Below are positions 10,639 through 39,191 of a DNA stretch of 64,000 bases, one piece after another. The first letter of the stretch is position 1. Every line of letters begins with the position of its first letter. Location of the stretch: contig JAHDPL010000044.1 in the NCBI GenBank assembly GCA_018434355.1, positions 1-64,000 on the forward strand, read 5' to 3'. Under the pieces are notes generated by a model. The model did not search any database, had not been told where the DNA came from, and saw only the letters and a program-made list of their open reading frames with translations. The DNA is from Sporomusaceae bacterium (GTDB lineage Bacteria > Bacillota > Negativicutes > UBA1444). The position numbers and the translations under genes are program-made.

Positions 10639-11382
10639 TCACCTCTGTATCCCAGCTTCATCCAATATCCGGCCGTCACTCAACAGTTCGACTCCCCCGT
10701 CAGCAATCAATCGATGATTGTCGCCAATAATCCAAACCCGGTCAGCCAGTTCGCGGGCGGTTTCCAGTACATGCGTCGCCGTGATCACCGTCTTTCCGGC
10801 ATCACCAAGTTGGTTTAGCGCAGTCACCAGCCATTTTTGATTTTCCAGGTCCAAATCATTGGTCGGTTCGTCAAATATCATCACTTCAGGATTTTCCGCC
10901 AGCATCGCGGCAATCGCCACCATTTTCTTTTCACCGCCACTGATATTTTGCGGCAGACGATGAACCAGACGGCGGATATTGCAAAAATCAAGGACCTGTT
11001 CGGTCCGCGCTTTGGCTTCTTCGCGATCCAGGCCATTTTTTAACGGCCCGAACATGATTTCGTCTAATACCGATGCACAGACCACCCGAAACTCGATTTG
11101 TTGGAACACCGCGCCGACACGTCTGCGATAGGCGGCGCTCTCATTTTGGTTATGGATCTCTTTCAATGTCAGCGGTTTGCCAAACGCGCTGAACCTTCCT
11201 TCGGCAGGCAAGAGACCTGCCAATATCTTTTCCAACGTTGTCTTGCCCGCGCCGTTCGGTCCGAGGATTACGATTTTTTCACCGGCCTTCACGCTAAGGT
11301 TAATGTCCAGCAAAGCCGGTTCATGCGGGCGATAGCGGTAGCTTACATGCTTCAGTTCAAAAATTGGTTCACGGTAAGTCAA
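10639..11382 (-). CDS. Orphan energy-coupling-factor/cobalt-type ABC ATPase
   Basis: An ATP-binding subunit resembling CbiO/EcfA: Walker A GPNGAGKTT (about residue 41), Q-loop VFQQIEF, signature ISGGEKK, Walker B VMIFDEPTNDLD and switch histidine ATHVLE. 247 aa. No EcfT, S-component or second ATPase is adjacent; the following genes are a Nudix hydrolase and CopZ, so the transporter it powers must be encoded elsewhere. The start is a TTG at 11382 with AGGAG 12 nt upstream, and is somewhat uncertain. Confidence 0.88.
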   Translation of the reverse strand: MTYREPIFELKHVSYRYRPHEPALLDINLSVKAGEKIVILGPNGAGKTTLEKILAGLLPAEGRFSAFGKPLTLKEIHNQNESAAYRRRVGAVFQQIEFRVVCASVLDEIMFGPLKNGLDREEAKARTEQVLDFCNIRRLVHRLPQNISGGEKKMVAIAAMLAENPEVMIFDEPTNDLDLENQKWLVTALNQLGDAGKTVITATHVLETARELADRVWIIGDNHRLIADGGVELLSDGRILDEAGIQR

Positions 11383-11487
11383 TGCGGACTCAGTCTCCTC
11401 TGCAAAATTATGTTGGCTCCCGATTGCAACAGAGTCATTATAATTTTATTCCCCTGTCATACGGCAAACTCCTGCAAAAGCAACAAA

Positions 11488-11510
11488 GGATAGCTTGCGA
11501 AAAGCTACCC
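11488..11510 (-). terminator. Terminator after bofA
   Basis: On the minus strand GGGTAGCTT and AAGCTATCC form a stem with a short TTCGC loop, followed by TTTGTTGCTTTTG. It closes the dnaX-ebfC-recR-bofA transcript. Confidence 0.7.
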
Positions 11511-11542
11511 TTTGTCCGTCCGGCATCTTGAAAAAAGCCATT

Positions 11543-11818
11543 TCATATCGGTTTGCCGCCGATGAACATAAAATAAATTGCCAGAATCGCAACTCCAGGC
11601 AACCCGAGGAACCCAACAATCAAAGCGGTCCATACCGTAATCGGCAAAACGAAACCGAACCCGGCGCCAATCAAGTTGATCAGCCATAAAGCAACGCCGC
11701 CGATCAAGCCATTATAGACCAGCTTAAATACAATTTTTAGCGGAATCACCATAAAAAAGCCGAGCAACAGGATCAGCACGATTCCAAAAGCATAGGCGCC
11801 TACAATCGGCAACGTCAC
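11543..11818 (-). CDS. bofA: BofA-family pro-sigma-K processing inhibitor
   Basis: A 91-aa protein made almost entirely of membrane helices with the BofA pattern (VFKLVYNGLIGG, GLPGVAILA). In Bacillus, BofA holds the SpoIVFB protease inactive in the outer forespore membrane until the engulfed forespore signals. Its place directly after recR is the same as in B. subtilis (where yaaL intervenes; here yaaL is missing). Start is GTG at 11818 with GAAGGG upstream. It suggests the organism forms endospores; it does not prove that sporulation is intact. Confidence 0.85.
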   Translation of the reverse strand: MTLPIVGAYAFGIVLILLLGFFMVIPLKIVFKLVYNGLIGGVALWLINLIGAGFGFVLPITVWTALIVGFLGLPGVAILAIYFMFIGGKPI

Positions 11819-11835
11819 AGTCAGCCCTTCTTTCT

Positions 11836-12447
11836 TCAGATTTCGCGGCGGTTTTCCAGTGCTTTAGCCAACGTTTCCTCGTCGGCGTACTCCAGATCAC
11901 TGCCTGTCGGCAAGCCGCGGGCGATCCGGGTGACCTGAATGCCAAGCGGTTTCAGCAAACGAGCCACATAAGTCGCGGTCACTTCGCCTTCAAGATTCGG
12001 ATTGGTGGCCATGATCACTTCTCGGACATCCCCCGTCTGAATCCGTTCGACCAGTTCCCTGATCCGAATATCTTCCGGTCCAATCCCATCAAGCGGCGAC
12101 AACGTTCCCTGCAAGACATGATAAGTACCTTGGTAACCGCGATTTCGCTCGTGACCGCGAGTCCGTTCCATCGCCGCCACGTCGCGCGGTTCCTCCACAA
12201 CGCAGATCGTGTGGTGATCTCGCGTTTGCGAGCGGCAGATGGCGCAGGGGTTTTCGTCTGTCAGGCTAAAACACACCGAACAGTAGGCGATCTTGTCTTT
12301 TGCCGCGATGATTGAATTGGCCAATGCCAAGGCCCGCTCCCGTTCCATTCCCAAAACATGATAGGCCAAGCGGGCCGCCGTCTTGGGGCCGATGCCCGGC
12401 AAGCGGCGGAACTGGTCCATCAACTGCGCAAGCGGCAACGGAACCAT
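11836..12447 (-). CDS. recR: Recombination mediator protein RecR
   Basis: Works with RecO/RecF to load RecA on single-stranded gaps. The 203-aa chain shows the helix-hairpin-helix [13 protein letters not shown] (about residue 16), the zinc finger CSVC...CAIC (about residues 56-71), and the Toprim domain ([20 protein letters not shown]). Length is typical. It starts 6 nt after the ebfC stop, in the order dnaX-ebfC-recR found across bacteria. Confidence 0.97.
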
Positions 12448-12452
12448 CTAGC

Positions 12453-12782
12453 TTACAACATCCCCTTAGGCAGATTCAAACCCGAAGTCAGTTTGCCCAT
12501 TTCTGTCGAAGTCATTTCATCAACTTTCTTGACAGCTTCGTTAAATACGGCAGCCAACATATCTTCCAGCATTTCCAGATCATCCGGATCAACTGCCTCC
12601 GGCGCGATTTTGATTGAACGGATTTCCTTGTCGCCAGTGATTACGACTTTTATCGCACCCCCTCCGGCGGTTACTTCCATCGTCCTTTGCTTCAGCTCTT
12701 CCTGCAGTTTTGCCATATCTGCCTGCATTTTCTGGACCTTTTTCATCATACCGGCCATGTTGCCGGCGCCGCCTCCGAACAT
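12453..12782 (-). CDS. ebfC: YbaB/EbfC family nucleoid-associated protein
   Basis: A 109-aa dimeric DNA-binding protein; the Met-rich start (FGGGAGNMAGMMKK) followed by a charged helix and VTAGGGAIKVVITG strand motif are diagnostic. Lies between dnaX and recR, 5 nt after dnaX, as in many bacteria (yaaK in Bacillus). Its exact role is not established; binding to DNA and influence on recombination/replication genes are known for the family. Confidence 0.95.
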   Translation of the reverse strand: MFGGGAGNMAGMMKKVQKMQADMAKLQEELKQRTMEVTAGGGAIKVVITGDKEIRSIKIAPEAVDPDDLEMLEDMLAAVFNEAVKKVDEMTSTEMGKLTSGLNLPKGML

Positions 12783-12787
12783 TTCGT

Positions 12788-14431
12788 TTACTCCTCCTCA
12801 ATTTTCGTGATATTGCCGCCAAAAATCTGTTGTACTTTCAATACCGCCGGCGGAATTTCTTCCTGCTTCGGCTTGCCTGGCGCCGCGTCGGCTTTTGTTG
12901 ACGGTTGGTCCGCCACGCAGTGAATCCGCATCGGCATCGCCATCATTTTGGACATCAGGTCTTCCAGCCACTTGCGTATCTCGTCCTGCGCCACCCGCTC
13001 ACGGATAGTGTCCCGCTGGAAAACCAGCGTGGCGATCCCGTCGGAACATGCAGCCAGCCGCGCATCAGCCAACTGGGCTTTCACAGATCGTTTGCCGGCC
13101 TGTTCCACCCTTTTCAACAAATCATCCATGACCCTCGCCAGTCCGTCGGCATCCAAAACATAGCCTTTGGCCTGACTGCCGGGAGCTGGTCCGCCGACCG
13201 GCGGTGATCCGACCGTTTTTTTCTGCTCGCCGACCGCGCTCTTCGCTGGTTCAGCAGCAGTTGTAGCGGAGGGGATGACCGGCCTTTCCTGCCGTGGCGT
13301 CGCACTTGCCGGTTGGACCGGCGCCGGTTGCAATACTTCTTGCCTGGCGCAAGCCGTTAATATCGCCATTTCCGCGGTGATCCGCGGGTCAACCGACCAC
13401 CGGGCATCGCTGGATGCTTGATAAAAATGTTCCACCAGTCGGACCAACTGCGCATGGTCGGTTTTTTTGCTATCCGCCGCCAACCGGTCCGGACTGAACG
13501 CCGCTAACACCGGGCTATCCAAATTGGGGGCGGCTCGATACAGCATCAGGCTACGGCAGTAACCGGCCAGTTCGAGCAATAGTTGTCTAGCGTCTTTGCC
13601 GCGCAGCATCTGTTCTTCAAGGACTGACAAACCCTGCGCTCCATCACAAGCGGCCACCGCCGCGAACAATCCATACACCGACTCCTGGCCGACCAATCCC
13701 AACAATTCGCGCACTTCCGATTCTGTCACTCCGTCATCGCCAAGCACGCTACATTGATCAAGAATACTGACCGCATCGCGTACGCCACCATCGGCCTGCA
13801 AAGCGATCAACCTGAGCGCCTCCGGAGTTGCGGCAATACCGGACTCTTTAGCGATGTGCGCCAAATGGTCCGTCAGTTCCTTAAGCCCGACCCGGCGAAA
13901 ATCATAGCGCTGGCAACGCGACAAAATCGTCGCCGGAATCTTGTGCGGCTCGGTGGTCGCCAAAACAAAAATCACATGGGCCGGCGGTTCCTCCAGCGTT
14001 TTCAGCAGAGCATTGAACGCCTCGTTCGTCAGCATGTGGACTTCGTCAATAATATAAATCTTGTAGCGCGACTGAGCCGGAGAAAACTTCACATTTTCCC
14101 GCAAATCGCGAATCTCATCGATGCCGCGGTTCGAAGCCGCATCAATTTCATATACATCCATGGCTGAGCCGTCATTGACCATCTCGCAGGAACGGCAGCG
14201 ATTACAAGGGTTTTCAGTCGGACCGGTTTCGCAGTTCAACGCTTTGGCCAGCACTTTCGCCGTACTGGTTTTGCCGGTGCCGCGCGGCCCGGTGAACAGA
14301 TAGGCATGCGAAATCCGACCGGTAACAATCGCGTTCTTCAATGTAACGCCTACATGTTCCTGTCCGATCAGTCCTTCAAAGTCTCTTGGACGCCATTGTC
14401 TGTACAGTGCTTTGTAAGCGATGGTTTCCAC
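12788..14431 (-). CDS. dnaX: DNA polymerase III subunit gamma/tau
   Basis: The clamp-loader ATPase. Visible parts: Walker A GPRGTGKTS (about residue 48), a four-cysteine zinc module (C..CNRCRSC, about residues 69-82), Walker B IIDEVHML, the sensor LATTEPHKIP, then a proline/alanine-rich linker (about 370-420) and a C-terminal domain for polymerase contact. 547 aa. The start appears to be GTG (METIAYKALYRQW); the purine-rich AAAAAGGG abuts it. A shorter gamma form by frameshift was not looked for in detail. Confidence 0.96.
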   Translation of the reverse strand: METIAYKALYRQWRPRDFEGLIGQEHVGVTLKNAIVTGRISHAYLFTGPRGTGKTSTAKVLAKALNCETGPTENPCNRCRSCEMVNDGSAMDVYEIDAASNRGIDEIRDLRENVKFSPAQSRYKIYIIDEVHMLTNEAFNALLKTLEEPPAHVIFVLATTEPHKIPATILSRCQRYDFRRVGLKELTDHLAHIAKESGIAATPEALRLIALQADGGVRDAVSILDQCSVLGDDGVTESEVRELLGLVGQESVYGLFAAVAACDGAQGLSVLEEQMLRGKDARQLLLELAGYCRSLMLYRAAPNLDSPVLAAFSPDRLAADSKKTDHAQLVRLVEHFYQASSDARWSVDPRITAEMAILTACARQEVLQPAPVQPASATPRQERPVIPSATTAAEPAKSAVGEQKKTVGSPPVGGPAPGSQAKGYVLDADGLARVMDDLLKRVEQAGKRSVKAQLADARLAACSDGIATLVFQRDTIRERVAQDEIRKWLEDLMSKMMAMPMRIHCVADQPSTKADAAPGKPKQEEIPPAVLKVQQIFGGNITKIEEE

Positions 14432-27852: not shown

Positions 27853-29946
27853 ATGATTTGCCCGGCATGTTTTATGGAAACATTTAATAACGGAACCTGT
27901 TCGTCTTGCGGCTTTGACGAAGCTGCACAACAAAGCCCCTTGCTGCTGCCGCCCGGCACACCGCTGATGAACGGACAATACCTGGTAGGAAAAATCCTCG
28001 GCAAGCCCGGCGGTTTTGGCATCACATATCTGGGTTGGGATAGCCAATTGGCAACCTTTGTCGCCATCAAGGAGTATTTGCCGCGCGACGTAGCTGGTCG
28101 CCACTTTGACCGACTGACTGTTAGCGCTCACACTGCTGCCGATACAGAGCACTTCCGCTATGGAATGGAACAATTTTTGTTGGAAGCCAGAACTTTAGCT
28201 CAATTCGACCATCCTAACGTGGTGCGGGTACGGACATTCTTCCAAGAAAACGGCACTGCGTATTTGGTGATGGATTATTTGCAGGGCAACAGTTTGCATG
28301 ACCACTTGGCGACCGTCGGTGGCCGGATGTCCGAAAAAATGGCTCTCGACACCATGTTGCCAATCCTGGAAGGCTTGCGTGAAGTCCATGCCAAAGGCTT
28401 TCTTCACCGGGATATTAAGCCGCAGAACATCTATATCACGACAAACGGACGACCGATTCTGCTTGATTTCGGCACCGCCAGACAAGCAATGAGCGGCCTG
28501 AACCGGGGCATGACGACAATATTAACGCCCGGCTACGCCCCCTGGGAACAATATCACAGACACGGCAAGCAAGGCGCCTGGACCGACATTTATGCCTGCG
28601 CCGCTACTTTGTATCATCTGGTAACAGGCTCTGTTCCTCCGGAAGCAGCCGAACGGGTGGCGCAAGATACACTAGTTCCGCCAGCCCAGCTTTCGCCAGG
28701 ACTCTCACCGCATTTCAATTTCGCCGTCATACAGGCCTTGTCGATCGATCCGGCAAACAGGCCGCAAGATGTCGCAGCCTTCCAATCTGCTCTATCAGGG
28801 AAAACAGCTTCTGTTCCTCCGCCCCCCCCTCCGCAAAGTCAGGCAGCCCCGACGCCTTATCCACCGCCGCCGGTTCCGCCTTCTCCCTATACCCAGCAAC
28901 CGGCTTATTCGGCGACACCGCCAATAAGTTATCAACCAAGCGCTCCGCCCGCTCCTGGCTGGGCGCCGCCACCACCTCCGCCGGCCAATTCCGGTTGGCC
29001 ACCTGGCCCGCCAGCTCAGCAACCGTATCCGGCAAGCCCCCCCGCCTATCTGCCACCGCAAGCCAAATCCGGCGGCAAAGGCCGTAAACTGCTGATCGGT
29101 GTCGCTGCGGCTGTTGTTCTGATCATCGGCGGAATTGCCGTTTCGTACAGCAGCATGAACGGTCATCAGACCATCAGTCATAAAAACGGGACTTATGAAG
29201 GCAATGTCAGTTGGGGAACGCCATCCGGCAAAGGAAAACTGACTTACGCCAGTGGTTCGGTTTATGTCGGCGACTTCGCCTCTGGCCAACGGCAAGGCAC
29301 CGGTGTCTTTCGTACCAACAAAGGAGATGTGTACGAAGGCCAATGGAAAAACGACCGCTTTGACGGCAACGGAAAACTGACTTTAGCTGATGGTTCTCGC
29401 TATGAAGGAAGCTTCAAAGAAGGCAAACGGCACGGAACAGGCACGCAAATTTATGCGGACGGACGTCAATACACCGGCGCCTGGATCGACGACAAGAAGA
29501 ACGGCAATGGCACTTATACCCTAAAGAACGGAAGCAAGTATACCGGCCCGTTTAAAGACGACTTTGCCGAGGGTGAAGGAACCATCGTGAACAGTCGCGG
29601 CGACAAATATGTTGGCGGCTTTTTACGCGGTGTAAAAAGCGGTCAGGGCACTTTCACCTTTGCCAACGGCAATGTCTACCAGGGCTCTTTTGCTGACGAT
29701 CTGCGCAATGGTCAGGGAACGATGCGCTGGACCAGTGGCAGCTATTATAACGGTGAGTGGAAAAATGACAAACGCCATGGCAAAGGAATACAAGCTTTGA
29801 TGAACAGCGGAGCGGTGATCGCCGAGTATGTCGGGGAGTACCGCGAAGATGTACCATACAGCCCCAACGGTCAGTTCCGCGTCATCCTGAAAAAGGACAA
29901 CAGGGCCGTTATCGCGTCCTACCGAGACGGCTCCTTCTACTGGTAA
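27853..29946 (+). CDS. Membrane Ser/Thr kinase with zinc ribbon and nine periplasmic MORN repeats
   Basis: 697 aa in clear blocks. Residues 3-19: zinc ribbon (CPAC, CSSC). About 42-320: Hanks-type kinase with glycine loop LGKPGGFGITYLG, ATP lysine K73, HRDIKPQN (185-192), DFG (205-207). About 320-405: proline-rich linker. About 412-432: one membrane helix. From 448: nine MORN units, each starting Y-x-G, at an exact 23-residue pitch (448, 471, 494, 517, 540, 563, 586, 609, 632). With the kinase inside, the MORN array faces outwards, perhaps as an envelope or lipid sensor. Ends in FYW. Start has GGGAG upstream. It opens the signalling island and converges with the CsgG-like gene. Confidence 0.92.
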   Translation: MICPACFMETFNNGTCSSCGFDEAAQQSPLLLPPGTPLMNGQYLVGKILGKPGGFGITYLGWDSQLATFVAIKEYLPRDVAGRHFDRLTVSAHTAADTEHFRYGMEQFLLEARTLAQFDHPNVVRVRTFFQENGTAYLVMDYLQGNSLHDHLATVGGRMSEKMALDTMLPILEGLREVHAKGFLHRDIKPQNIYITTNGRPILLDFGTARQAMSGLNRGMTTILTPGYAPWEQYHRHGKQGAWTDIYACAATLYHLVTGSVPPEAAERVAQDTLVPPAQLSPGLSPHFNFAVIQALSIDPANRPQDVAAFQSALSGKTASVPPPPPPQSQAAPTPYPPPPVPPSPYTQQPAYSATPPISYQPSAPPAPGWAPPPPPPANSGWPPGPPAQQPYPASPPAYLPPQAKSGGKGRKLLIGVAAAVVLIIGGIAVSYSSMNGHQTISHKNGTYEGNVSWGTPSGKGKLTYASGSVYVGDFASGQRQGTGVFRTNKGDVYEGQWKNDRFDGNGKLTLADGSRYEGSFKEGKRHGTGTQIYADGRQYTGAWIDDKKNGNGTYTLKNGSKYTGPFKDDFAEGEGTIVNSRGDKYVGGFLRGVKSGQGTFTFANGNVYQGSFADDLRNGQGTMRWTSGSYYNGEWKNDKRHGKGIQALMNSGAVIAEYVGEYREDVPYSPNGQFRVILKKDNRAVIASYRDGSFYW

Positions 29947-29950
29947 TATA

Positions 29951-29987
29951 AAAATTCCCGGTTGCCCTAATGACAACCGGGAATTTT
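29951..29987. terminator. Bidirectional terminator between the MORN kinase and CsgG-like genes
   Basis: AAAATTCCCGGTTG and CAACCGGGAATTTT form a 14-bp stem with A/T tails on both sides. Confidence 0.85.
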
Positions 29988-30027
29988 TATGCCTATTATG
30001 AGTTTTAAACTATTATTCTGCAATCAA

Positions 30028-30984
30028 TTACGGCAATTGAACGAACATGCCCTTGGCAATCTGATCGATATTTCCATTGGTCACTGTTGCGATTGCGATT
30101 TTTTCCCGCACGCTATCGACCCGAATATTGGCTAACGTCGAAAAACTGACATCCAGCACTTCGCCTGTGCTGGGGTCACGCAAAGCTTCAGCTGTACCGA
30201 CGACAAACTCCATCCCTTCGGTCACCCCTTCGCGGGTACCACGATTGATATAAACATTTCCATCTTTCACCATCACAACATTGCCGCGCCAAGTTACTTT
30301 GGGCAGTTGTTCGATCATCCATTGCACACCCTGTTGCACTGCGTTCTCAACGGCTTTTCCCACATTGTCGCTTTTGAATCCACCCGCGCCGGCGCCCCAG
30401 CCGCTACCGGAATAGCCAATGAAGCCGCCGGACTTGTTTGACTTGCCTACCACACTTTTGGACGCCAAAATCTGTCCGGTCGAGGTATGCACCATATACA
30501 TCGTCACATTGACCTGCGAATTGGCGCTCGCGCCGCCCAATGTCACACCGCCGAAGGACACTCCGCCGCCACCGCCGCTGGTATTGTTCTGCACATGCGT
30601 AATCGCGCCTTTGACCAGAATCTGAGCCGGTGTCATATTGCCGACACCGGGAGTGATTGCGCCTTGCGCGGTTCTCCCGGATGCTGCCAAGTCCTGTTCG
30701 GCCATTGCTTCCTTACGCATGTCGGTTTCCGCTAACACGATAAATTTCCCTGTCTGATTAAGAATATCCGTCATAATGATGCCCCAGCCGTCGCCGAGGT
30801 CCCATTGACCGCGATAACCGGCCCGGTTCTCAAATTTGGAAACGGATACCGTATAGCGCAACCCCCCGGTTGCATTTCCGGCAGGCATCGTCGAAGTTGC
30901 AGGCGCTGCCATGACCGACAGCGGAGCCAAACTAGCGATCGCCACCATCACCACGGCTACCAATAACGCAATTCTTTTTTTCAT
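30028..30984 (-). CDS. CsgG/HfaB-like secreted protein
   Basis: 318 aa with a type I signal peptide (MKKRIALLVAVVMVAI..., cleavage after VMAAP region). The CsgG pattern is seen in VSKFENRAGYRGQWDLGDGWG, GDGWGIIMTDIL and ILVKGAITHV, followed by glycine-rich strands and NAVQQGVQWMIEQLP. A C-terminal strand domain (MVKDGNVYINRGTREGV) resembles FlgT-like extensions. Classical CsgG is an outer-membrane lipoprotein pore; here no lipobox cysteine is visible and no curli genes are near. Last gene of the minus-strand signalling operon. An envelope role is inferred. Confidence 0.8.
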   Translation of the reverse strand: MKKRIALLVAVVMVAIASLAPLSVMAAPATSTMPAGNATGGLRYTVSVSKFENRAGYRGQWDLGDGWGIIMTDILNQTGKFIVLAETDMRKEAMAEQDLAASGRTAQGAITPGVGNMTPAQILVKGAITHVQNNTSGGGGGVSFGGVTLGGASANSQVNVTMYMVHTSTGQILASKSVVGKSNKSGGFIGYSGSGWGAGAGGFKSDNVGKAVENAVQQGVQWMIEQLPKVTWRGNVVMVKDGNVYINRGTREGVTEGMEFVVGTAEALRDPSTGEVLDVSFSTLANIRVDSVREKIAIATVTNGNIDQIAKGMFVQLP

Positions 30985-31020
30985 TTTCTAAACCATCCTT
31001 CCTTATCCAGCTAACTATTT

Positions 31021-31452
31021 CTACCAAAGCGAGGTGGGTTTGCCCTGTTGATTGGGTATAACCGCTCCCGGAGTAACAGGCGCAGCCGGTGGCGGACAGG
31101 CGGCCATCGAACTGTAGGGAAGCGGCTTTTGCACCAACACCATGTAGCACTGCCCCGATTCCGGACAAAATCCGAATGCCGGCATACCCATGTAAGAAGT
31201 CATTCCCGGCGAAACGCCTGAAGCGGCTACAGGCAGCATCAACGCGTTCCAATAGGGCGTTCCGTTCGACATCTTTAAATGATAATCCTGCTGTAAAATC
31301 GTCTGCATGAAAGAACCCCAGCCATTTCCTGATGCTCCCATCCATACAACGCCGCCGGTAGCAGCAGATACGCCTGAAGTCATGCCAATCATTCCAGCGA
31401 GTATGATGCAGACCAATAATAGTTGAATACGTTTAAGCTTTTTTTCGGTCAT
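31021..31452 (-). CDS. Small secreted protein of unknown function
   Basis: 143 aa: signal peptide (RIQLLLVCIILAGMIGMTSGVSA, cut after about residue 31), then a Gly/Ser/Met-rich mature part with a possible disulfide in FGFCPESGQCYM and a proline-rich tail ending TSLW. The same three last residues, encoded by the same 12 nt, end the kinase encoded just upstream. AAGGGG precedes the ATG. Not recognised; position suggests a periplasmic partner of the signalling island. Confidence 0.75.
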   Translation of the reverse strand: MTEKKLKRIQLLLVCIILAGMIGMTSGVSAATGGVVWMGASGNGWGSFMQTILQQDYHLKMSNGTPYWNALMLPVAASGVSPGMTSYMGMPAFGFCPESGQCYMVLVQKPLPYSSMAACPPPAAPVTPGAVIPNQQGKPTSLW

Positions 31453-31500
31453 GGCTTGTCACCCCTTTCATTTACATTGGTTTCGGCGCACATTTCGCGA

Positions 31501-33135
31501 CTACCAAAGCGAACCTTGCTCACGTTTTGGTGGCGCGGGCGTCGTTGGTTTATTCGCCGGCGGTTGCTGACGCACTGCCGGTTGTTGTCGTGGTTGCGCC
31601 GGCGGTTCTGCCGGTGGCGGAGTTACCTCTGCAGGCGGTTTGGCCTGTTCGCTTGGCGTGTTGGGAGTCGACGGGGTTGGTCCGGCAGCTGCCGGCGGTT
31701 TATTGGCTTCGACCGGTTTTTGCGGCGGTAGCGGTTCAAACGGCTGTTTATCGGTCGGTTTAATTGTCTGGACATCACTCGGCGCCGACTTTGCCGGCGG
31801 GGTTGCAATCGGTGCAGTTTTCTTGGCGGGTTCTTCCGTGCCGCTCAAAAAATACCAGCCAGCCGCAGCCACAACCAACAAAATCCCAGCCACAGCCAAC
31901 CAGGTTCCGGCGGATGACTTTTTTCCAGCGGGCGGGGGTTGTTGCTGCGGATAGTGTTGCGGCGGATACGCCGGTCCTTGCGGTGTATAATGGGGTGGAA
32001 CGGCAGCGGGCGGCAAAACAGGAGTTGGTTCAGCCGGTCGGACCGCAACCGCCGGCGGAGGAGTTGGCGCAATGACGGGCGGCCCCGCATTTACAGGCAA
32101 GGGTGGCGGTGCTGCGGCAGCAGCAAATGTAGCGGCAGGCGGCGGAGCGTTTGCCGAGTCCGCCGTAGCCCGTCCATGCAGGATATCGCGGAAAATGAAG
32201 ACATCTTGCGGTCGTCCTGCTGCTTCCAGAGACAGCGATTGCATGATGGCTGACTCTAGGCCGGTTGAAACTGTCGGCGCCAGTTGCCTTAGCGGAATCA
32301 ATTCGTCAGAAGCCACCCGTTCCGGTGCATCCGGGGGCGCATGACCGGTAAGCAAGTAATAGTACGTGGCCGCCAACGCATAGATGTCGGTCCAAGGCCC
32401 CTGTTCGCCGCGCCGGTGGTATTGTTCATAGGGGGAAAATCCTGGCGTGAGAACAACCGAAAGACTCCTACTGCGTTCCCCCATCGCTTGGCGGGCCGCG
32501 CCAAAATCGAGCAGAATCGGTCGCCCTGTCGATGTGACATAGATGTTCTGCGGCTTAATGTCCCGGTGAAGAAAGCCCTTGGCATGAACCTCCTGCAATC
32601 CGTCCAATATGGGCAGCATGATTTCGCCGGCCTGTTGTTCGTTCAGCCGACCGCCCTTCGACGCCAGATACTCGGATAAGTTAACGCCCTGAAGATAATC
32701 CATCACCAGATACGCCGTCCCGTTCTGCTCAAAAAAGCTACGGGTACGCACCACGTTCGGATGGTCAAATCTCGCTAATGTGCGGGCCTCCTGCAAAAAT
32801 TGCTCCAGCCCAAAACGAAACAGACTGGCATCTTCCCTAGAATGCGCCATGACCGAAGCATGATCGGAATCCCGCCCGGCGTAATCGCGCGGCAGGTATT
32901 CCTTGACCGCCACCAGCGTGGCCAGGTTGATGTCCCAGCCCAGATAAGTGATGCCGAAACCGCCTGGTTTACCCAATACTTTCCCCACAATGAACTGTCC
33001 GTTTAGAACGGTTCGATGCGGCAATACCAAAGGCGTCCGGCGCTCGGATTCATCGTAGCCGCAATAGGGACAAACCGCAACCGCGCCTTTTTCGGCAAAA
33101 CAACCCGGACATAGCGTCTCCCATGCGTTCATCAT
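31501..33135 (-). CDS. Membrane Ser/Thr kinase with zinc ribbon and proline-rich periplasmic tail
   Basis: 544 aa. Zinc ribbon C9-x2-C12 / C22-x2-C25; Hanks kinase about 48-335 with LGKPGGFGITYLG, lysine K78, HRDIKPQN (190-197) and DFG (210-212); proline/alanine-rich linker; one membrane helix (about 410-430); then an outside tail of about 110 residues rich in Pro, Thr, Lys and Gln, ending GSLW. The kinase half is a close paralogue of the MORN kinase, but with a different sensor. It sits between the FHA and small secreted genes. The tail could contact peptidoglycan; this is inference. Confidence 0.92.
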   Translation of the reverse strand: MMNAWETLCPGCFAEKGAVAVCPYCGYDESERRTPLVLPHRTVLNGQFIVGKVLGKPGGFGITYLGWDINLATLVAVKEYLPRDYAGRDSDHASVMAHSREDASLFRFGLEQFLQEARTLARFDHPNVVRTRSFFEQNGTAYLVMDYLQGVNLSEYLASKGGRLNEQQAGEIMLPILDGLQEVHAKGFLHRDIKPQNIYVTSTGRPILLDFGAARQAMGERSRSLSVVLTPGFSPYEQYHRRGEQGPWTDIYALAATYYYLLTGHAPPDAPERVASDELIPLRQLAPTVSTGLESAIMQSLSLEAAGRPQDVFIFRDILHGRATADSANAPPPAATFAAAAAPPPLPVNAGPPVIAPTPPPAVAVRPAEPTPVLPPAAVPPHYTPQGPAYPPQHYPQQQPPPAGKKSSAGTWLAVAGILLVVAAAGWYFLSGTEEPAKKTAPIATPPAKSAPSDVQTIKPTDKQPFEPLPPQKPVEANKPPAAAGPTPSTPNTPSEQAKPPAEVTPPPAEPPAQPRQQPAVRQQPPANKPTTPAPPKREQGSLW

Positions 33136-33164
33136 CTACACTCCCTCTGCGGTTACCGGAAAGC

Positions 33165-33830
33165 CTATTTATCAGCTGGCTCTTCCTTGCCTTGATCCCA
33201 GTTGAATCGGTCGCCGCACAAAGCGACGAACATCAGTTGGGTCTCCCCCAATTCAATAATATCATAAGATTTGATATCTGAGGCCTGAACCACTTCATCT
33301 CCGTTGAGATAAACCAGACCGCGTCCGTCGCCGGGACGGATGCTAAAAGTGCGTTTGCGCGGCTCGTAAACAAGAAAGGCATGGTTTTCGCGTGAAACCG
33401 TGTCGTCGCCGGCAATTTGCACATCCATTGCTTCGGACCGCCCAATCCCGTTGCGCCCGCTGCGAATCCGGTAATCTCGGCCGCGCGACGGTCCTTTTAC
33501 ACAAATCAGCCAACCAACGACCGGGTCAATCCCGACCTTCTTCATATCTACAGCTACAGTTCTGCCTTCTTCCGCACCTTTTTTGACGCCAATCGGCGGC
33601 GGACCGGCCGGTCGCAAAGGCACCGTCGGCCCTACAACCGGAGGAGGATTATCGCGTAGCGGCCTGGTTGCGCCAACCGGTGCAGGCCCGCCAACCATTG
33701 GCGGCGGAGCCATCGGCGGTTGCGCCTCCGTTGCGCCGGGACCTCCGGCAGGCATGCTGCCGCAGTAAGGACAGACATTATGTCGGGACGGGTCATAGAA
33801 ATGGCCTTGTTGGCAACGAATCAGCGCCAT
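33165..33830 (-). CDS. Soluble zinc-ribbon FHA-domain protein
   Basis: 221 aa, cytoplasmic. N-terminal metal-binding C6/H10 and CPYC (20-23), then a Pro/Gly-rich linker to about residue 85, and an FHA domain with the phosphothreonine-binding pattern GRNGIGRSE, TVSRENHAF and VYLNGDEV. FHA domains bind phosphothreonine, so this is a likely target or adaptor of the two kinases. No membrane segment. 30 nt upstream of the kinase gene in the same operon. Confidence 0.9.
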   Translation of the reverse strand: MALIRCQQGHFYDPSRHNVCPYCGSMPAGGPGATEAQPPMAPPPMVGGPAPVGATRPLRDNPPPVVGPTVPLRPAGPPPIGVKKGAEEGRTVAVDMKKVGIDPVVGWLICVKGPSRGRDYRIRSGRNGIGRSEAMDVQIAGDDTVSRENHAFLVYEPRKRTFSIRPGDGRGLVYLNGDEVVQASDIKSYDIIELGETQLMFVALCGDRFNWDQGKEEPADK

Positions 33831-33901
33831 GGTTTTATTCCCCTTTCATGTAAGCATCTCCGGTAATTCCGGGTGTCAGCAGTCTATTCCTTGGTGCCCA
33901 A

Positions 33902-35008
33902 CTATTGAGCCTTAGGTTTATTTGCACCCTGTGCGTCCTTTTTCTCCGCCGGCTTCTCCGATGACTTCAAAGGTTTCTCCACAGATTTTTCAGTTGACTT
34001 TGGTTCCGCCTTGTCAGACATACTTTCTGTCACCGGCCCGGTCGCGCTGTTTTCAAAATAGTAACGCCCGCCCCAGAAAGCTGCCACCGCCAGTACCAGC
34101 AGAAGCAAGCCGACTTTAAGAACGGTTCCGGCAGTCTTTTTTTTCTGGCGCGGTTTTTCAGCCACAGTTGCGCCTGGTTCCGCCTTGCGCAGTTGCGTTT
34201 CCGCCAATGGCGGCGGAGGCGGCAAATCATAGCCCAGAATGGCAACGGTAATATTGTCCTGATAGGGATGTTGCCGTTTGAGGGTTGCTTCAATTAAGTC
34301 TTCAGCTGCATGTTGCGGTGTCTGAACCATCAGCAAAGCGATTTCTGTTTCGTCCAAGAAACCAAACAGTCCGTCACTCGCCAGCAGGATTTTGTCACCA
34401 GACTGCAAAGCCAGCGGTTTGTCTGTCGGCGAATCGTACTCGTCTACCTCTTCCTTGCCAAGATAACTGGTCAATGCGGCGCGGGAAGGATGGGCGGCAG
34501 CTTCACTGCGACTGATCTCTCCATTTTCGGCCATACGGTCGAGCACCCGACCGTAGTTGAAATCCGTCGTCAGTTGCCGTAACGCACCGTCACGGAATAA
34601 ATAGATTCGACTATCTCCAGCGGCGATACGGTAGAGCATTCCCTCGTGGATGACAACCGCGACCAAGGTGGTACCGGCTTCGCCTTCCACGCCGACTTCC
34701 GCCGCTTTTCGGTTGACCGCCCGATTGGCTGCATGTAGCCCGCGTACCATGACCGCGCCGATTTTTTCTTGCTTTTCTTTGGCTGCATAGGAGGCAAGAA
34801 AGGTCCGAACGGCGATAGCGCTAGCTTCCCGCCCCATTGCCATTCCGCCCATTCCATCGGCAACAATCGCCAACACACCGGCATGTTCAACAAATTCCGC
34901 ATCATCAAACGCCGAAAAACCAAAGGCATCCTGCTGTTCGCTGCGAGCACCCACATGTTGAGCATTGCCGGGGGTCACCGCCGGCAATTTGGTTTTCTCA
35001 TTCGTCAT
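33902..35008 (-). CDS. Membrane-anchored PP2C-family Ser/Thr phosphatase
   Basis: 368 aa: PP2C catalytic domain (about 12-260) with metal residues in IVADGMGGMAMG, AAGDSRIYLF, LLASDGLFG and DNITVAIL; the usual N-terminal R-x-x-N-x-D is ARSEQQD here. A cytoplasmic linker precedes one membrane helix (about 297-315), and a Lys/Glu/Pro-rich outside tail follows (repeats of EK-KP type). It starts 4 nt after the other phosphatase stop, with GGGAG upstream. It would reverse kinase phosphorylation at the membrane. Confidence 0.9.
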   Translation of the reverse strand: MTNEKTKLPAVTPGNAQHVGARSEQQDAFGFSAFDDAEFVEHAGVLAIVADGMGGMAMGREASAIAVRTFLASYAAKEKQEKIGAVMVRGLHAANRAVNRKAAEVGVEGEAGTTLVAVVIHEGMLYRIAAGDSRIYLFRDGALRQLTTDFNYGRVLDRMAENGEISRSEAAAHPSRAALTSYLGKEEVDEYDSPTDKPLALQSGDKILLASDGLFGFLDETEIALLMVQTPQHAAEDLIEATLKRQHPYQDNITVAILGYDLPPPPPLAETQLRKAEPGATVAEKPRQKKKTAGTVLKVGLLLLVLAVAAFWGGRYYFENSATGPVTESMSDKAEPKSTEKSVEKPLKSSEKPAEKKDAQGANKPKAQ

Positions 35009-35012
35009 CTAC

Positions 35013-35747
35013 TCATACTCCCGGGAATCGAACTGCGATGGCGGTGTAATTGTCGTGTTCCGGTTCAGCACGTTCCAACACCCTTCGTTCCAGCAGCGCC
35101 AGATACTCTGTTGCCGAAGCCGCCCTTGCCCAATCCGCTTCCAGTTCCGGTTCCAAAACATAGGTCCAGATCCCGTCGCTGCATAGCAGCGCCGCATCAC
35201 CAGGCTGCCATGTCAAAGGCTCCGAAAGTACCGATGTTTTCAACGTTCCTGGTTGCCCTACCGCCCGGGTCAGTCGATTTTGATCCTCATGCCCCCGAAT
35301 TTTCAACGGGTCCAACTTTCCTGCATCAACCAGCATTTGCGGCACACTATGGTCTTTTGTTTGGTGGATAATTTTTCCCCGGCGAAACCAATAAAGCCTT
35401 GAATCGCCGACATGTCCCCAAACGACTTGCTTTTCTGCGCAGACTGCAACGACCAAGGTGGTCCGCATTGCCGACAACTCATACTCTGCGGCAGCTTTGA
35501 CCCGAATGGCCTGATGTGCGGTTTGCAAGCAAGACTCAATAAACGCTGATGAAACCTCGGCTTCCTGACGAAATCTCGACAAAACCGAATCCACGGCCAT
35601 GCGGGAGGCGGTTTCACCGCCCGCATGACCGCCTAGTCCATCAGCAACGACCCAACAGCCTTTAGTTTGATTCGCCTCGTAACCAAACGAGTCCTGATTG
35701 CTTCTGCGCCCACCCGTCTGGGATAGGAAGGCAGTATCGAACATCAT
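35013..35747 (-). CDS. Soluble PP2C-family Ser/Thr phosphatase
   Basis: 244 aa consisting only of a PP2C domain: SNQDSFGY, VVADGLGGHAGGETAS, GHVGDSRLYW, LLCSDGIW and DNYTAIAV are all present, so both metal sites look complete. No membrane segment. Translation starts at one of two tandem ATGs (35747 or 35744); a TTG at 35753 would overlap the preceding stop. It directly follows the protease-FHA gene. The second phosphatase of the island; the two may act on different substrates. Confidence 0.9.
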   Translation of the reverse strand: MMFDTAFLSQTGGRRSNQDSFGYEANQTKGCWVVADGLGGHAGGETASRMAVDSVLSRFRQEAEVSSAFIESCLQTAHQAIRVKAAAEYELSAMRTTLVVAVCAEKQVVWGHVGDSRLYWFRRGKIIHQTKDHSVPQMLVDAGKLDPLKIRGHEDQNRLTRAVGQPGTLKTSVLSEPLTWQPGDAALLCSDGIWTYVLEPELEADWARAASATEYLALLERRVLERAEPEHDNYTAIAVRFPGV

Positions 35748-35749
35748 CG

Positions 35750-37111
35750 TCAATCCGCACGCAATTCGAACAAATGCGTCGGATCACTCAGGTAGAATCT
35801 TTCGCCGGACCGCAACCGCGCTTGTCCGTTAATTTTCTGTCCGTTCACGAAGAACGTTCCGTTCGTGGACCTGTCCTCAACTGTGAACGACTGGCTGGCG
35901 GCATCATAGGTCACGATGCAGTGCACCCGACTGATTTCGCTCATTTCCGAAGGAAATACCAGCTGAGCCTGTTGCGGGTCACGCCCGATCAACATCGGTC
36001 TGCCGGACGCGATTTCAATCGTCTTGCCAGCGAAAAATCCGCTTACGCCACTAATCGTCGTTCGTTTCACTGCAGCGGCAACTGTAGGTTTTGGCGCAGC
36101 CGGCGGCGCTCCCTGGGGAATCTGTTGCGGCGGCATCTGCGGTTGCATGTGAGGTTGCATCGGCATTTGCATCTGGGGCGGGCTCTTTTTCCGCGACATC
36201 ATATAGCCGATGATACCGATTAGAATCAATACTACCGCTCCGCCACCCAGCACCATCGGATTTTGATAGAAGGGCTCGGGGGGAGGCGGAGGAGGCGGTG
36301 TTGCCGGTTTCGTGTCCGTAGCCGGCGGCGGAGTCACCGGTTGCTCCTTGGTACCTGAGATCGAACCGGCCGCAGGCGCACGCTCGGCAACCGCATTGGT
36401 GCGCTTGATTACTTCCATGATTTCATCGGAATCGACAGCATAGTTGAGTGAAGATGATCTGCCTTTCAGCGTGGACATCCCGATCACATGACCCCGGCTA
36501 TTGAATACCGGACCGCCGGAGTTGCCGGGATTGATGTCAGCTGTAATCTGAACCATATGGGCGCCGCCGCCCAAACGCAACTTTTGCACTACTTGCCCCG
36601 GCGTCGGGGTAGCCGGTGCGTTCAGCCAGTCTTCATCAACCCGGTCGCTGGTCCCGGGGAATCCGACGGCGATCACCTGTTCCGCCGCTTTGATATCTTC
36701 CCGGCGCACCAGTTTCACACTGGGTTTGGCCAACTTCTGATCGACCGATAAGACGGCGATATCATTTGCCTGCGATGTAGCGCGAATCTCCAGCGCGCGC
36801 AATAAGTCACGACCGCGACCTAACGCCACCCAAGCTTGCGCTCCCTGTTTTTCGACCGCTTCAATGACGTGATAGTTTGTCACGATGTGTTTTCCGTCAT
36901 CAATGACAAACCCGCTACCTTTGCCCAGCAGGCGGCCACCCTGTGTAATCAGCACCCGGACCGAGCTGTTCTTCATTGTTTCGATGTCCGCGTCGGTTGC
37001 CGCAGCGACTACCGGCATAACGGCGGTTACCGACAATACCATGAACGTCAGAATGATTGCCAGACATTTTTTCACCGATCGTTGCATTGTCCCTGGACTT
37101 TGGTTCAACAT
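35750..37111 (-). CDS. Periplasmic trypsin-like protease joined to a cytoplasmic FHA domain
   Basis: 453 aa. Signal-anchor or signal peptide (about 13-38), then an S1C-type serine protease with catalytic H81 (TNYHVIE), D117 (ANDIAVL) and S198 (NPGNSGGPVF); a proline-rich linker; a membrane helix (about 288-308); a Met/Pro/Gln-rich stretch; and an FHA domain (about 355-453) with canonical LIGRDP, SRVHC and STNGTFFVNG. No PDZ domain. The layout puts protease outside and phosphothreonine reader inside, a way for kinase signals to control proteolysis in the envelope. ATG at 37111 has AAGGTGG upstream; 37132 is an alternative. Confidence 0.88.
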   Translation of the reverse strand: MLNQSPGTMQRSVKKCLAIILTFMVLSVTAVMPVVAAATDADIETMKNSSVRVLITQGGRLLGKGSGFVIDDGKHIVTNYHVIEAVEKQGAQAWVALGRGRDLLRALEIRATSQANDIAVLSVDQKLAKPSVKLVRREDIKAAEQVIAVGFPGTSDRVDEDWLNAPATPTPGQVVQKLRLGGGAHMVQITADINPGNSGGPVFNSRGHVIGMSTLKGRSSSLNYAVDSDEIMEVIKRTNAVAERAPAAGSISGTKEQPVTPPPATDTKPATPPPPPPPEPFYQNPMVLGGGAVVLILIGIIGYMMSRKKSPPQMQMPMQPHMQPQMPPQQIPQGAPPAAPKPTVAAAVKRTTISGVSGFFAGKTIEIASGRPMLIGRDPQQAQLVFPSEMSEISRVHCIVTYDAASQSFTVEDRSTNGTFFVNGQKINGQARLRSGERFYLSDPTHLFELRAD

Positions 37112-37209
37112 TTTTACCACCTTCCCAATCATTAGTCGATTCCCTGCCGGATTTCGCTAGAGGAGCACGAGAGACTACGCGGACATATTGCGGCGTGACA
37201 GTTTTTTGT

Positions 37210-38721
37210 TCAAGAGGAAGGAAATGAAATTCTCATTGCGGTGTGACCCAATTGCAGGATATCTTGTTCTTCAATCCGCTGACGTTCAGTGAGAACAACC
37301 CCGTTTAAACAAGTACCGCCTGGCGACGCCAAGTCCTGCACATATAAGAGTCCGGTTTCAAAAACGATTTCGCAGTGGGCAGCGGCAATTTCATCATCCT
37401 GTTCAATCACCAAATGGCTGACGCGGGGGTCACTGCCAATAATCACCCGATCAACAATCTCCAAATCAAACGGCTCAGGTTGTGTCCCAGCCTCCACACG
37501 CGAAAACCGAACCAAAACCCCAGGTTGCCGGCTGGGTTGCACCGCCGGCGGAGCAGGTTCCGGCGCCACCGGGGCCGGTTTGGCCGGCGAATTTGAGCGG
37601 CGTCGCAACAGCATTATCCCTCCGACGCACAAAATGGCGACCAGGCCCGCCGCAATCCACAGCCACTGATTTCCACCTGACGAAGAATCTTTGCCAGCGA
37701 CCTTTCCTCCCGGAGCGGTTGGTGCGTCCGTTTGCTTTGCCGGTGCTGCCACTATCGCGCCACCCGCTGGAATCGTCAGGTCCAGTTTTTCGGTCCAGAC
37801 CTTATTCGCGGCCGAAAGCGTCAGCGAAACCGGAAAAACCGCGCCTTCCGAGCGAAGATTCGTCGCCTCCGCTTCAATCACAAATGCGCTGCGAATTGCC
37901 CGGGAAATAGCAAAATAAATACCCCGCCATTCGCCGCCGCGACCATCGTAGTAGCGACCGCCCGATAGGCGGGAAAAAGTCTTCATCACGCCAATGGCGC
38001 TTTCTTCTTCGGCAGACGGCTTGCCTGGCACAAAACCAATCAGATATAACGGAACCGGATCGGCTTTCAACCGTTCCGCGATATCCCCTTTGCTAACACC
38101 GCCAGTCAGGTCGTTTACCCCGTCAGTCAACGTGATGACGACCCGGCGACTGGGAATATCCGCGCCGCCGTTTCTGGCAATCGCAATCGCTTTGTCGATC
38201 CCGCTATAAAAGGCAGTTTCGTCATCTGTCGGCGACAAAGCGGCGATATGGTCCTTGATCTTGCTGCGATTTGCAGTATAATCCTGAATAACTTTGACTC
38301 CTTGGCCAAAAGTTGCCAGTGCTACCCGGTCTGATTCCGCCATCGAATCGACAAAAGCAGCAAGTGTACTTTTCATCAGCGAAAACTGCGCCGGTGACAA
38401 GGACTTGGAAACATCAACAAGCAACACAAATCCAACGCCTTCTTTGGCGTCTTCGAACGGAGTCACGCGGGTCACTTTAGCAGTTGTCCCGCCGACCATC
38501 GCCTTAAAATCTTCCAGTTTCAATCCTTTAGCCGGCACATCGCCGCTACCGATAATATCGGCGTATAACTTGACCACCGGCAATGCCGCAGTTCCCTGAA
38601 CCAGTCTGAAATCATAGACTGTCGGCGGCGCGGCAGAAGCCGCCGGGGAATACTGCACCCACAATAATGACAGGACTGACAAAAAAACTAACCAATGGCA
38701 ACTTCGACGCCATTCCCTCAT
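37210..38721 (-). CDS. Periplasmic von Willebrand A domain joined to a cytoplasmic FHA-like domain
   Basis: 503 aa. Signal peptide (about 9-30), a vWA domain (about 95-280) with a complete metal-ion adhesion site: DVSKS, a threonine in DDETAFYSG and LTDGVND. After a beta-rich segment there is one membrane helix (about 350-370), a Pro-rich linker and a C-terminal FHA fold (about 405-503). In that FHA the usual binding residues are changed: IGSDP for GR and AAAHC for S-x-x-H, so phosphopeptide binding is doubtful. The start at 38721 is chosen for its GGAGG; an ATG at 38790 lacks one. First gene of the eight-gene minus-strand operon. Confidence 0.88.
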   Translation of the reverse strand: MREWRRSCHWLVFLSVLSLLWVQYSPAASAAPPTVYDFRLVQGTAALPVVKLYADIIGSGDVPAKGLKLEDFKAMVGGTTAKVTRVTPFEDAKEGVGFVLLVDVSKSLSPAQFSLMKSTLAAFVDSMAESDRVALATFGQGVKVIQDYTANRSKIKDHIAALSPTDDETAFYSGIDKAIAIARNGGADIPSRRVVITLTDGVNDLTGGVSKGDIAERLKADPVPLYLIGFVPGKPSAEEESAIGVMKTFSRLSGGRYYDGRGGEWRGIYFAISRAIRSAFVIEAEATNLRSEGAVFPVSLTLSAANKVWTEKLDLTIPAGGAIVAAPAKQTDAPTAPGGKVAGKDSSSGGNQWLWIAAGLVAILCVGGIMLLRRRSNSPAKPAPVAPEPAPPAVQPSRQPGVLVRFSRVEAGTQPEPFDLEIVDRVIIGSDPRVSHLVIEQDDEIAAAHCEIVFETGLLYVQDLASPGGTCLNGVVLTERQRIEEQDILQLGHTAMRISFPSS

Positions 38722-38934: not shown

Positions 38935-39191
38935 ATAATCCTCACAATTCGTGAGGAAAATTTATCTTACTACGGCGATGACTGGGACTAAAGTTTCGGT
39001 TAGAAGCACTTCAGAGAGCCGGTGTTGGCTGCGAACCGGCGTGCTTTCCGCAAACGAAAACTCACCCACGAGCTCTGCCTCTGATAAGGATGCGGCGTAT
39101 CCGGGCGTTAACCGGTAAAAGTCATAATGTAGGGTGGTACCGCGAATATCCGCCCCTATGGTCTTAACCGACCATAGGGGCGGTTTTTTTT
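38935..39191 (+). promoter_or_regulatory. T-box leader, probably leucine-specific
   Basis: Senses uncharged tRNA and lets transcription continue into leuA. The T-box sequence AGGGTGGTACCGCG is at 39131-39144. Stem I shows the distal motif CAGAGAGCCGGTG followed by CTGCGAACCGGC (about 39012-39040). CTC at 39061-39063, in the GAAAA-CTC-ACC context, is the likely specifier codon (Leu), which agrees with the downstream genes. The leader ends in a strong terminator; the antiterminator would use the T-box bases. Confidence 0.92.
39150..39191 (+). terminator. Regulated terminator of the T-box leader
   Basis: CCGCCCCTATGGTC pairs with GACCATAGGGGCGG around TTAACC, followed by eight T residues. Confidence 0.92.

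Follow-up and report, generated by a model that had tools for sequence, protein, structure and literature searches.

Ser/Thr kinases, phosphatases and FHA proteins occur together in bacterial gene sets whose known roles lie mostly in regulating secretion machines or cell-wall growth. The threonine phosphorylation pathway of the type VI secretion system (T6SS) comprises PpkA, PppA and Fha1 together with TagQRST (PMC12133291, PMC3953482), and PpkA carries a C-terminal vWA domain (PMC1262709). Among type VII secretion systems (T7SS), types T7SSc to T7SSj of Bacillota and Actinomycetota count vWA and FHA proteins, kinases and PPM phosphatases among their components (Garrett et al. 2024, PMC11217815). 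The ligand of FHA domains is phosphothreonine (PMC1262709, PMC3953482). Here we analyze a nine-gene island of such components in a Sporomusaceae bacterium (assembly GCA_018434355.1), located in the first 64,000 nucleotides of contig JAHDPL010000044.1 (the window). The explanation that we tentatively favour is a transmembrane Ser/Thr phosphorylation module that serves the cell envelope on its own.

The nine predicted genes were found in the sequence and open reading frame list of the window where a preliminary description had placed them, as one minus-strand operon of eight and a MORN kinase converging on it. The minus-strand series runs from 38721 to 30028 in the order vWA-FHA, protease-FHA, PP2C, PP2C with a transmembrane helix, zinc-ribbon FHA, zinc-ribbon transmembrane kinase, small secreted protein and CsgG-like protein, and its intergenic gaps do not exceed 77 bp, making a single operon plausible. 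Pfam confirmed the domains of the individual proteins (MORN, E-value 1.8e-43; Pkinase, 2e-32; CsgG, 4e-25; PP2C_2, 9.9e-20 and 5.5e-14) and both parts of the fusions (Trypsin_2 1.2e-23 with FHA 1.8e-13; VWA 1.5e-14 with FHA 3.1e-9). Hydrophobicity and the positive-inside rule place the kinase, PP2C and FHA domains in the cytoplasm and the MORN, protease and vWA parts outside, a predicted topology that agrees with the one proposed earlier. Both island kinases have intact active-site K, HRD and DFG, and both PP2C families retain the invariant set of metal-binding Asp residues. The soluble zinc-ribbon FHA protein gives a weak Pfam FHA match (2.2e-5), and its identity is backed by relatives at 40-47% identity.

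A sister metagenome-assembled genome of the same genus, UBA1444 (G001; the genome of the window is G000), carries all nine genes in a syntenic locus whose flanks match those of the window, with cca on one side and leuA on the other. It was the only match in a search of genome contigs for close relatives. A core of six families—zinc-ribbon transmembrane kinase, zinc-ribbon FHA, two distinct PP2Cs, protease-FHA and vWA-FHA—recurs in eight further genomes, all but one of which represent other families. Its gene order varies, some parts are exchanged, and the contexts are unrelated. Outside the genus, relatives of the core are found in G021, G020, G694, G677, G442, G382 and G560. The preliminary description had staked its proposal on the genes staying together, and they do so, as the full locus in G001 and as the core in other families. 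The conserved set is smaller than it had supposed: among the loci examined, the CsgG-like gene, the small secreted protein and the MORN kinase were not found outside the genus, and they therefore fall outside the conserved system. Unrelated regulatory genes that happen to lie close together and share no function would account for the reordering and exchange of parts between genomes, but the same families, two distinct PP2C lineages included, lie adjacent in nine genomes of eight families in unrelated contexts; this reading is already disfavoured and the least probable of those weighed here.

The set is rare. We scanned a fixed sample of 398 phylum genomes in full and found the zinc-ribbon FHA protein in 19. 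Full-length protease-FHA occurs in six genomes of the sample, five of which also have the zinc-ribbon FHA at the same loci (hypergeometric p about 8e-7, a test that is partly circular and overstates independence, because the profile seeds for protease-FHA and vWA-FHA were drawn partly from FHA loci). All four genomes with vWA-FHA have the zinc-ribbon FHA, again at the same loci. Within Negativicutes, vWA-FHA is found in 3 of 380 genomes (G000, G001 and G021), and full-length protease-FHA is also present in G020. Both G020 and G021 belong to families other than that of the window and carry the core in different chromosomal surroundings. The gene order in G021 is kinase, FHA, PP2C with transmembrane helix, protease-FHA, PP2C, membrane FHA and vWA-FHA; in G020 it is FHA-winged-helix regulator, FHA, PP2C with transmembrane helix, protease-FHA, PP2C, membrane FHA and kinase, the last at a contig end. 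The regulator directly upstream of the G020 module (L037, 2941-3687) joins an FHA domain to an OmpR-type winged helix, a domain content reminiscent of EmbR, which suggests a transcriptional branch in that relative. We distinguish type A neighbourhoods (G000, G694, G677, G442, G382, G560), whose shared parts are transmembrane zinc-ribbon kinases, a single PP2C or a pair, and ectodomains (protease, vWA or Ig-like Big_2) tethered to FHA, from type B neighbourhoods, considered below. We did not count the G706 locus as part of the module: it encodes a DUF6382-FHA protein along with three large kinases and three PP2Cs, and the branch of its FHA lies beside the Hsp70/DnaJ type. The sole orphan protease-FHA is that of G723 (L077, 9303-10586), where no kinase, PP2C or zinc-ribbon FHA was found within about 9 kb on either side. 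A plasmid search returned generic trypsin matches only.

In the protease-FHA protein of the window the catalytic residues H88, D124 and S205 are intact, it has HtrA matches in PDB, and Pfam finds no PDZ domain; an FHA domain with a canonical GR/SRxH/NG motif stands in its place. Of eight protease-FHAs, seven have the triad intact, all have the GR/NGT motif and seven have SRxH. With the motif kept, the protease could credibly be controlled by phosphothreonine reading. The vWA-FHA protein differs. Its metal ion-dependent adhesion site is intact (D103, S105 and S107 in DVSKS, T169, D200), but in its FHA domain GR has become GS (GSDP) and SxxH has become AxxH (IAAAH), with NG kept, and the sister genome shows the same changes. 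Of six relatives, only G021 and G442 have the canonical motif. With the Arg and Ser of the binding pocket gone, phosphothreonine control of the vWA part is unlikely in this genus. The earlier proposal that phosphothreonine reading steers proteolysis or vWA adhesion outside is thus credible in its first half and, for this genus, not supported in its second.

The most economical model is a receptor-like one, which draws on the known binding of phosphothreonine by FHA domains and on the conserved gene set. The membrane kinases would sense the envelope through their outside parts, MORN repeats or a short Pro-rich tail, and then phosphorylate themselves and their partners. Once phosphorylated, the kinases would be bound by two partners, the zinc-ribbon FHA adaptor and, through its FHA tail, the HtrA-like protease, so that the protease ectodomain would be gathered at activated receptors and act outside, on or near them. 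The vWA protein may serve as a metal-dependent envelope scaffold whose FHA domain, in this genus, would no longer depend on phosphothreonine, and the two PP2Cs, one membrane-held and one soluble, would erase the phospho-mark. As the only detected source of PP2C_2 and FHA in the genus, the module would probably also reset the housekeeping PASTA kinase. The binding partners, recruitment, substrate and signal are the parts of the model that we infer, as we infer the two-way character of the envelope signalling. A more novel but unlikely reading is inside-out control of periplasmic proteolysis, in which kinase phosphorylation is read by an FHA domain in the cytoplasm, and this reading positions the HtrA-like protease across the membrane or switches it. 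The island would then be self-contained, accessory to no secretion system, and the genus's only set of phosphothreonine readers and erasers.

The housekeeping locus of the PASTA kinase bears on the last point. In G020 and G021 it consists of rlmN, two FHA genes, a PP2C gene, RodA-like and PBP-like genes, the PASTA kinase gene prkC, rsgA and rpe, with the RodA-like and PBP-like calls made by position, length and membrane pattern rather than by profile search. In G000, on a 365-kb contig, rlmN abuts the PASTA kinase gene directly (L085, G000:C50:258000-277000, 10733-13623), which has no FHA or PP2C neighbours, and the FHA-FHA-PP2C-RodA-PBP block appears to have been lost. Searching all 55 contigs of this assembly, we found two matches to Pfam PP2C_2 and two to FHA above the cut-off, all in island genes; the soluble zinc-ribbon FHA lies under the cut-off, and the phosphatase search covered PP2C_2 only. 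Each of the 14 other Negativicutes tested has at least one PP2C_2. With the block missing and the island as the only detected FHA and PP2C_2 source, the island may also reset the PASTA kinase: its PP2Cs look like the only PP2C_2-type erasers left in G000 and could act on PrkC signalling too. Since PrpC and the two Fha genes are missing at the PASTA locus in this genus, whether the island erases the mark across the whole cell can be tested simply. The missing block and the lack of further PP2C_2 or over-cut-off FHA matches also lend some weight to a module mainly for the cell wall or division, in which the island, in this genus, took over the phosphothreonine reading and erasing of FhaA, FhaB and PrpC near the PASTA kinase and its protease and vWA act on wall synthesis. 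We regard this as unlikely: Pfam detects no PASTA, RodA or PBP in the island, and the block and the module coexist in G020 and G021.

That coexistence weighs against our preferred envelope module as well, since PrpC replacement is therefore not its general function, and it is joined by several other points besides the partial circularity of the co-occurrence test. The G442 locus lacks protease-FHA, and in G677 and G560 an Ig-like-FHA protein replaces vWA-FHA, so the output part varies. The protease-FHA homologue of G560 (L066, 6823-8388) has a trypsin-like domain without the catalytic triad, a pseudoprotease, so proteolysis is not always the output, and the protein is likely a binder in some lineages. 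The soluble zinc-ribbon FHA has an SxxxH motif, with one residue extra.

We searched for the secretion systems that such sets commonly serve. The annotated flanks in the window encode D-glutamate cyclase, a methyl-accepting chemotaxis protein, polysaccharide deacetylase, cca, leu genes, a TRAP transporter and ABC transporters; none of these metabolic, chemotaxis and transport genes is a secretion gene. VipB/TssC (PF05943) is absent from G000 and from 11 others, including all type A genomes tested, with a positive E. coli control. No WXG100 protein was found in G000, G001, G020 or G021; among the genomes tested, only G677 has any. The best EssC match in G000 reaches 108.7 bits against a cut-off of 778.4, the level of FtsK, with a model trained on T7SSb that covers distant TsxC types less well. 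The preliminary description's statement that no T6SS is attached is borne out, and T7SS markers are missing too. The island also has no PpkA-like kinase carrying a vWA domain: its vWA lies on a separate FHA protein, and its kinases bear MORN repeats or a Pro-rich tail. The island corresponds to no known T6SS or T7SS cluster.

The island might still regulate a secretion or injection machine, T7SS-like or contractile-like, that is encoded elsewhere or unrecognised. Kinases, PP2Cs and FHA proteins belong to T7SSc to T7SSj (PMC11217815), and a trypsin-FHA membrane protein 25% identical to the protease-FHA is encoded in the EssC/FHA cluster of G519, so single parts are common to secretion systems. 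Relatives of the zinc-ribbon FHA and PP2C also occur in the type B neighbourhoods, ten loci that encode an Hsp70-like protein, DnaJ and a TPR-PP2C, about half of them with a VgrG-like protein as well, and the FHAs of these loci group as one clade. By contrast, G000 lacks VipB and WXG100 and scores only at FtsK level for EssC, the WXG100 and EssC genes of G677 lie about 400 kb from its module, and in the loci read we recognised no secretion genes next to the module. We consider such a role improbable. The G519 locus (L084, G519:C18, 1475-10118) is itself T7SS-like, with an EssC that has an FHA-like N-terminus, small WXG100-sized reading frames and a further FHA protein. The type B cluster (L065, L067-L075, L083) is conserved in Bacillota and uncharacterised; it includes an Hsp70-like protein of about 880 aa, DnaJ, TPR-PP2C, PP2C, zinc-ribbon FHA, membrane FHA, and proteins of about 145 and about 720 aa with no Pfam match.

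In PADLOC the kinases match mad6 and PD-T4-6, with kinase-domain hits to PDLC04138 (8e-49) and to PD-T4-6 models, which raised anti-phage defence by kinase and phosphatase as a further reading. These matches come from the generic kinase domain alone, the NCBIfam MAD6 score is 123 bits against a cut-off of 460, no other MADS parts were seen and the surroundings are housekeeping genes, which leaves defence very improbable.

Features of the island are collected in Table 1. By eye, the inverted repeat between the MORN kinase and the operon is a putative bidirectional terminator-like site.

Table 1. Features of the island, with positions in the window
Feature	Position	Strand	Remarks
vWA-FHA	37210..38721	-	signal peptide, external vWA, transmembrane helix, cytoplasmic FHA with degenerate phosphothreonine site
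protease-FHA	35750..37132	-	HtrA/trypsin-like domain outside, transmembrane helix 293-311, cytoplasmic FHA
soluble PP2C phosphatase	35013..35753	-	start TTG 35753 or ATG 35747; metal-binding Asp residues intact
PP2C phosphatase with C-terminal transmembrane helix	33902..35008	-	second, distinct PP2C family
soluble adaptor, N-terminal zinc ribbon and FHA	33165..33830	-	GR, S and NG present
Ser/Thr kinase, N-terminal zinc ribbon, transmembrane helix, Pro-rich external tail	31501..33135	-	K, HRD, DFG intact
small secreted protein, fold not recognised	31021..31452	-	own genus only among loci examined
CsgG-family protein with FlgT_C-like end	30028..30984	-	signal peptide, no lipobox Cys
MORN Ser/Thr kinase: N-terminal zinc ribbon, transmembrane helix, 7 external MORN repeats	27853..29946	+	convergent with operon
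terminator-like GC-rich inverted repeat with flanking A/T runs, AAAAATTCCCGGTTG...CAACCGGGAATTTTT	29948..29993	.	by eye, between convergent units

The CsgG-like protein has a CsgG domain and a signal peptide ending in LSVMAAPATS; with no lipobox Cys, it is not a typical CsgG lipoprotein. AlphaFold models of this protein and of the small secreted protein, built from two-row alignments, were discarded (mean pLDDT 42 and 45). Composition gives no signal of horizontal transfer, with GC content of 0.54-0.57 in the island and 0.48-0.57 in the flanks. A T-box leader precedes leuA at 38969-39160 on the plus strand (87.5 bits, E 1e-19, just below the Rfam gathering score), oriented opposite to the island operon.

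In the open-licence literature searched, we found no description of the combined gene set, in line with the preliminary description, which had not recognised it as a described system. Like the T6SS threonine phosphorylation pathway, the island has a membrane kinase, PP2C, FHA reader and vWA domain, with envelope events as the likely input; unlike it, the island has no T6SS genes, a vWA on its own FHA protein, two PP2Cs and an extra FHA-tethered protease. It shares with T7SSc to T7SSj a single locus of transmembrane kinase, PPM phosphatase, vWA and FHA proteins, but has no TsxC/EssC ATPase or WXG100, and its vWA is extracytoplasmic where TscE is cytoplasmic. The PASTA kinase/FhaA-FhaB/PP2C/RodA/PBP cluster of G020 and G021, from the same phylum, follows the same logic of kinase, PP2C and FHA in the envelope; the island differs in lacking PASTA, RodA and PBP, in its kinase subfamily with an N-terminal zinc ribbon and in its protease and vWA ectodomains. 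The G519 EssC locus and the Hsp70-like/DnaJ/VgrG-like loci hold homologous single parts tied to other machinery, with the rest of the set missing. HtrA (Do/Deg) shares the trypsin-like triad with the protease-FHA, but not the PDZ domain. The TerY-P triad unites a vWA protein, a PP2C and a zinc-ribbon kinase, and its TerY-like vWA is cytoplasmic, stand-alone and found with ter genes. The predicted topology of the island vWA is extracytoplasmic, and it is fused to FHA. A set that recurs without secretion machine or cell-wall genes, and whose readers are fused through the membrane to protease, vWA or Ig-like domains, would amount to a signalling unit of its own that resembles a receptor. The module is real, conserved and rare, and varies the established kinase/PP2C/FHA theme without founding a new category.

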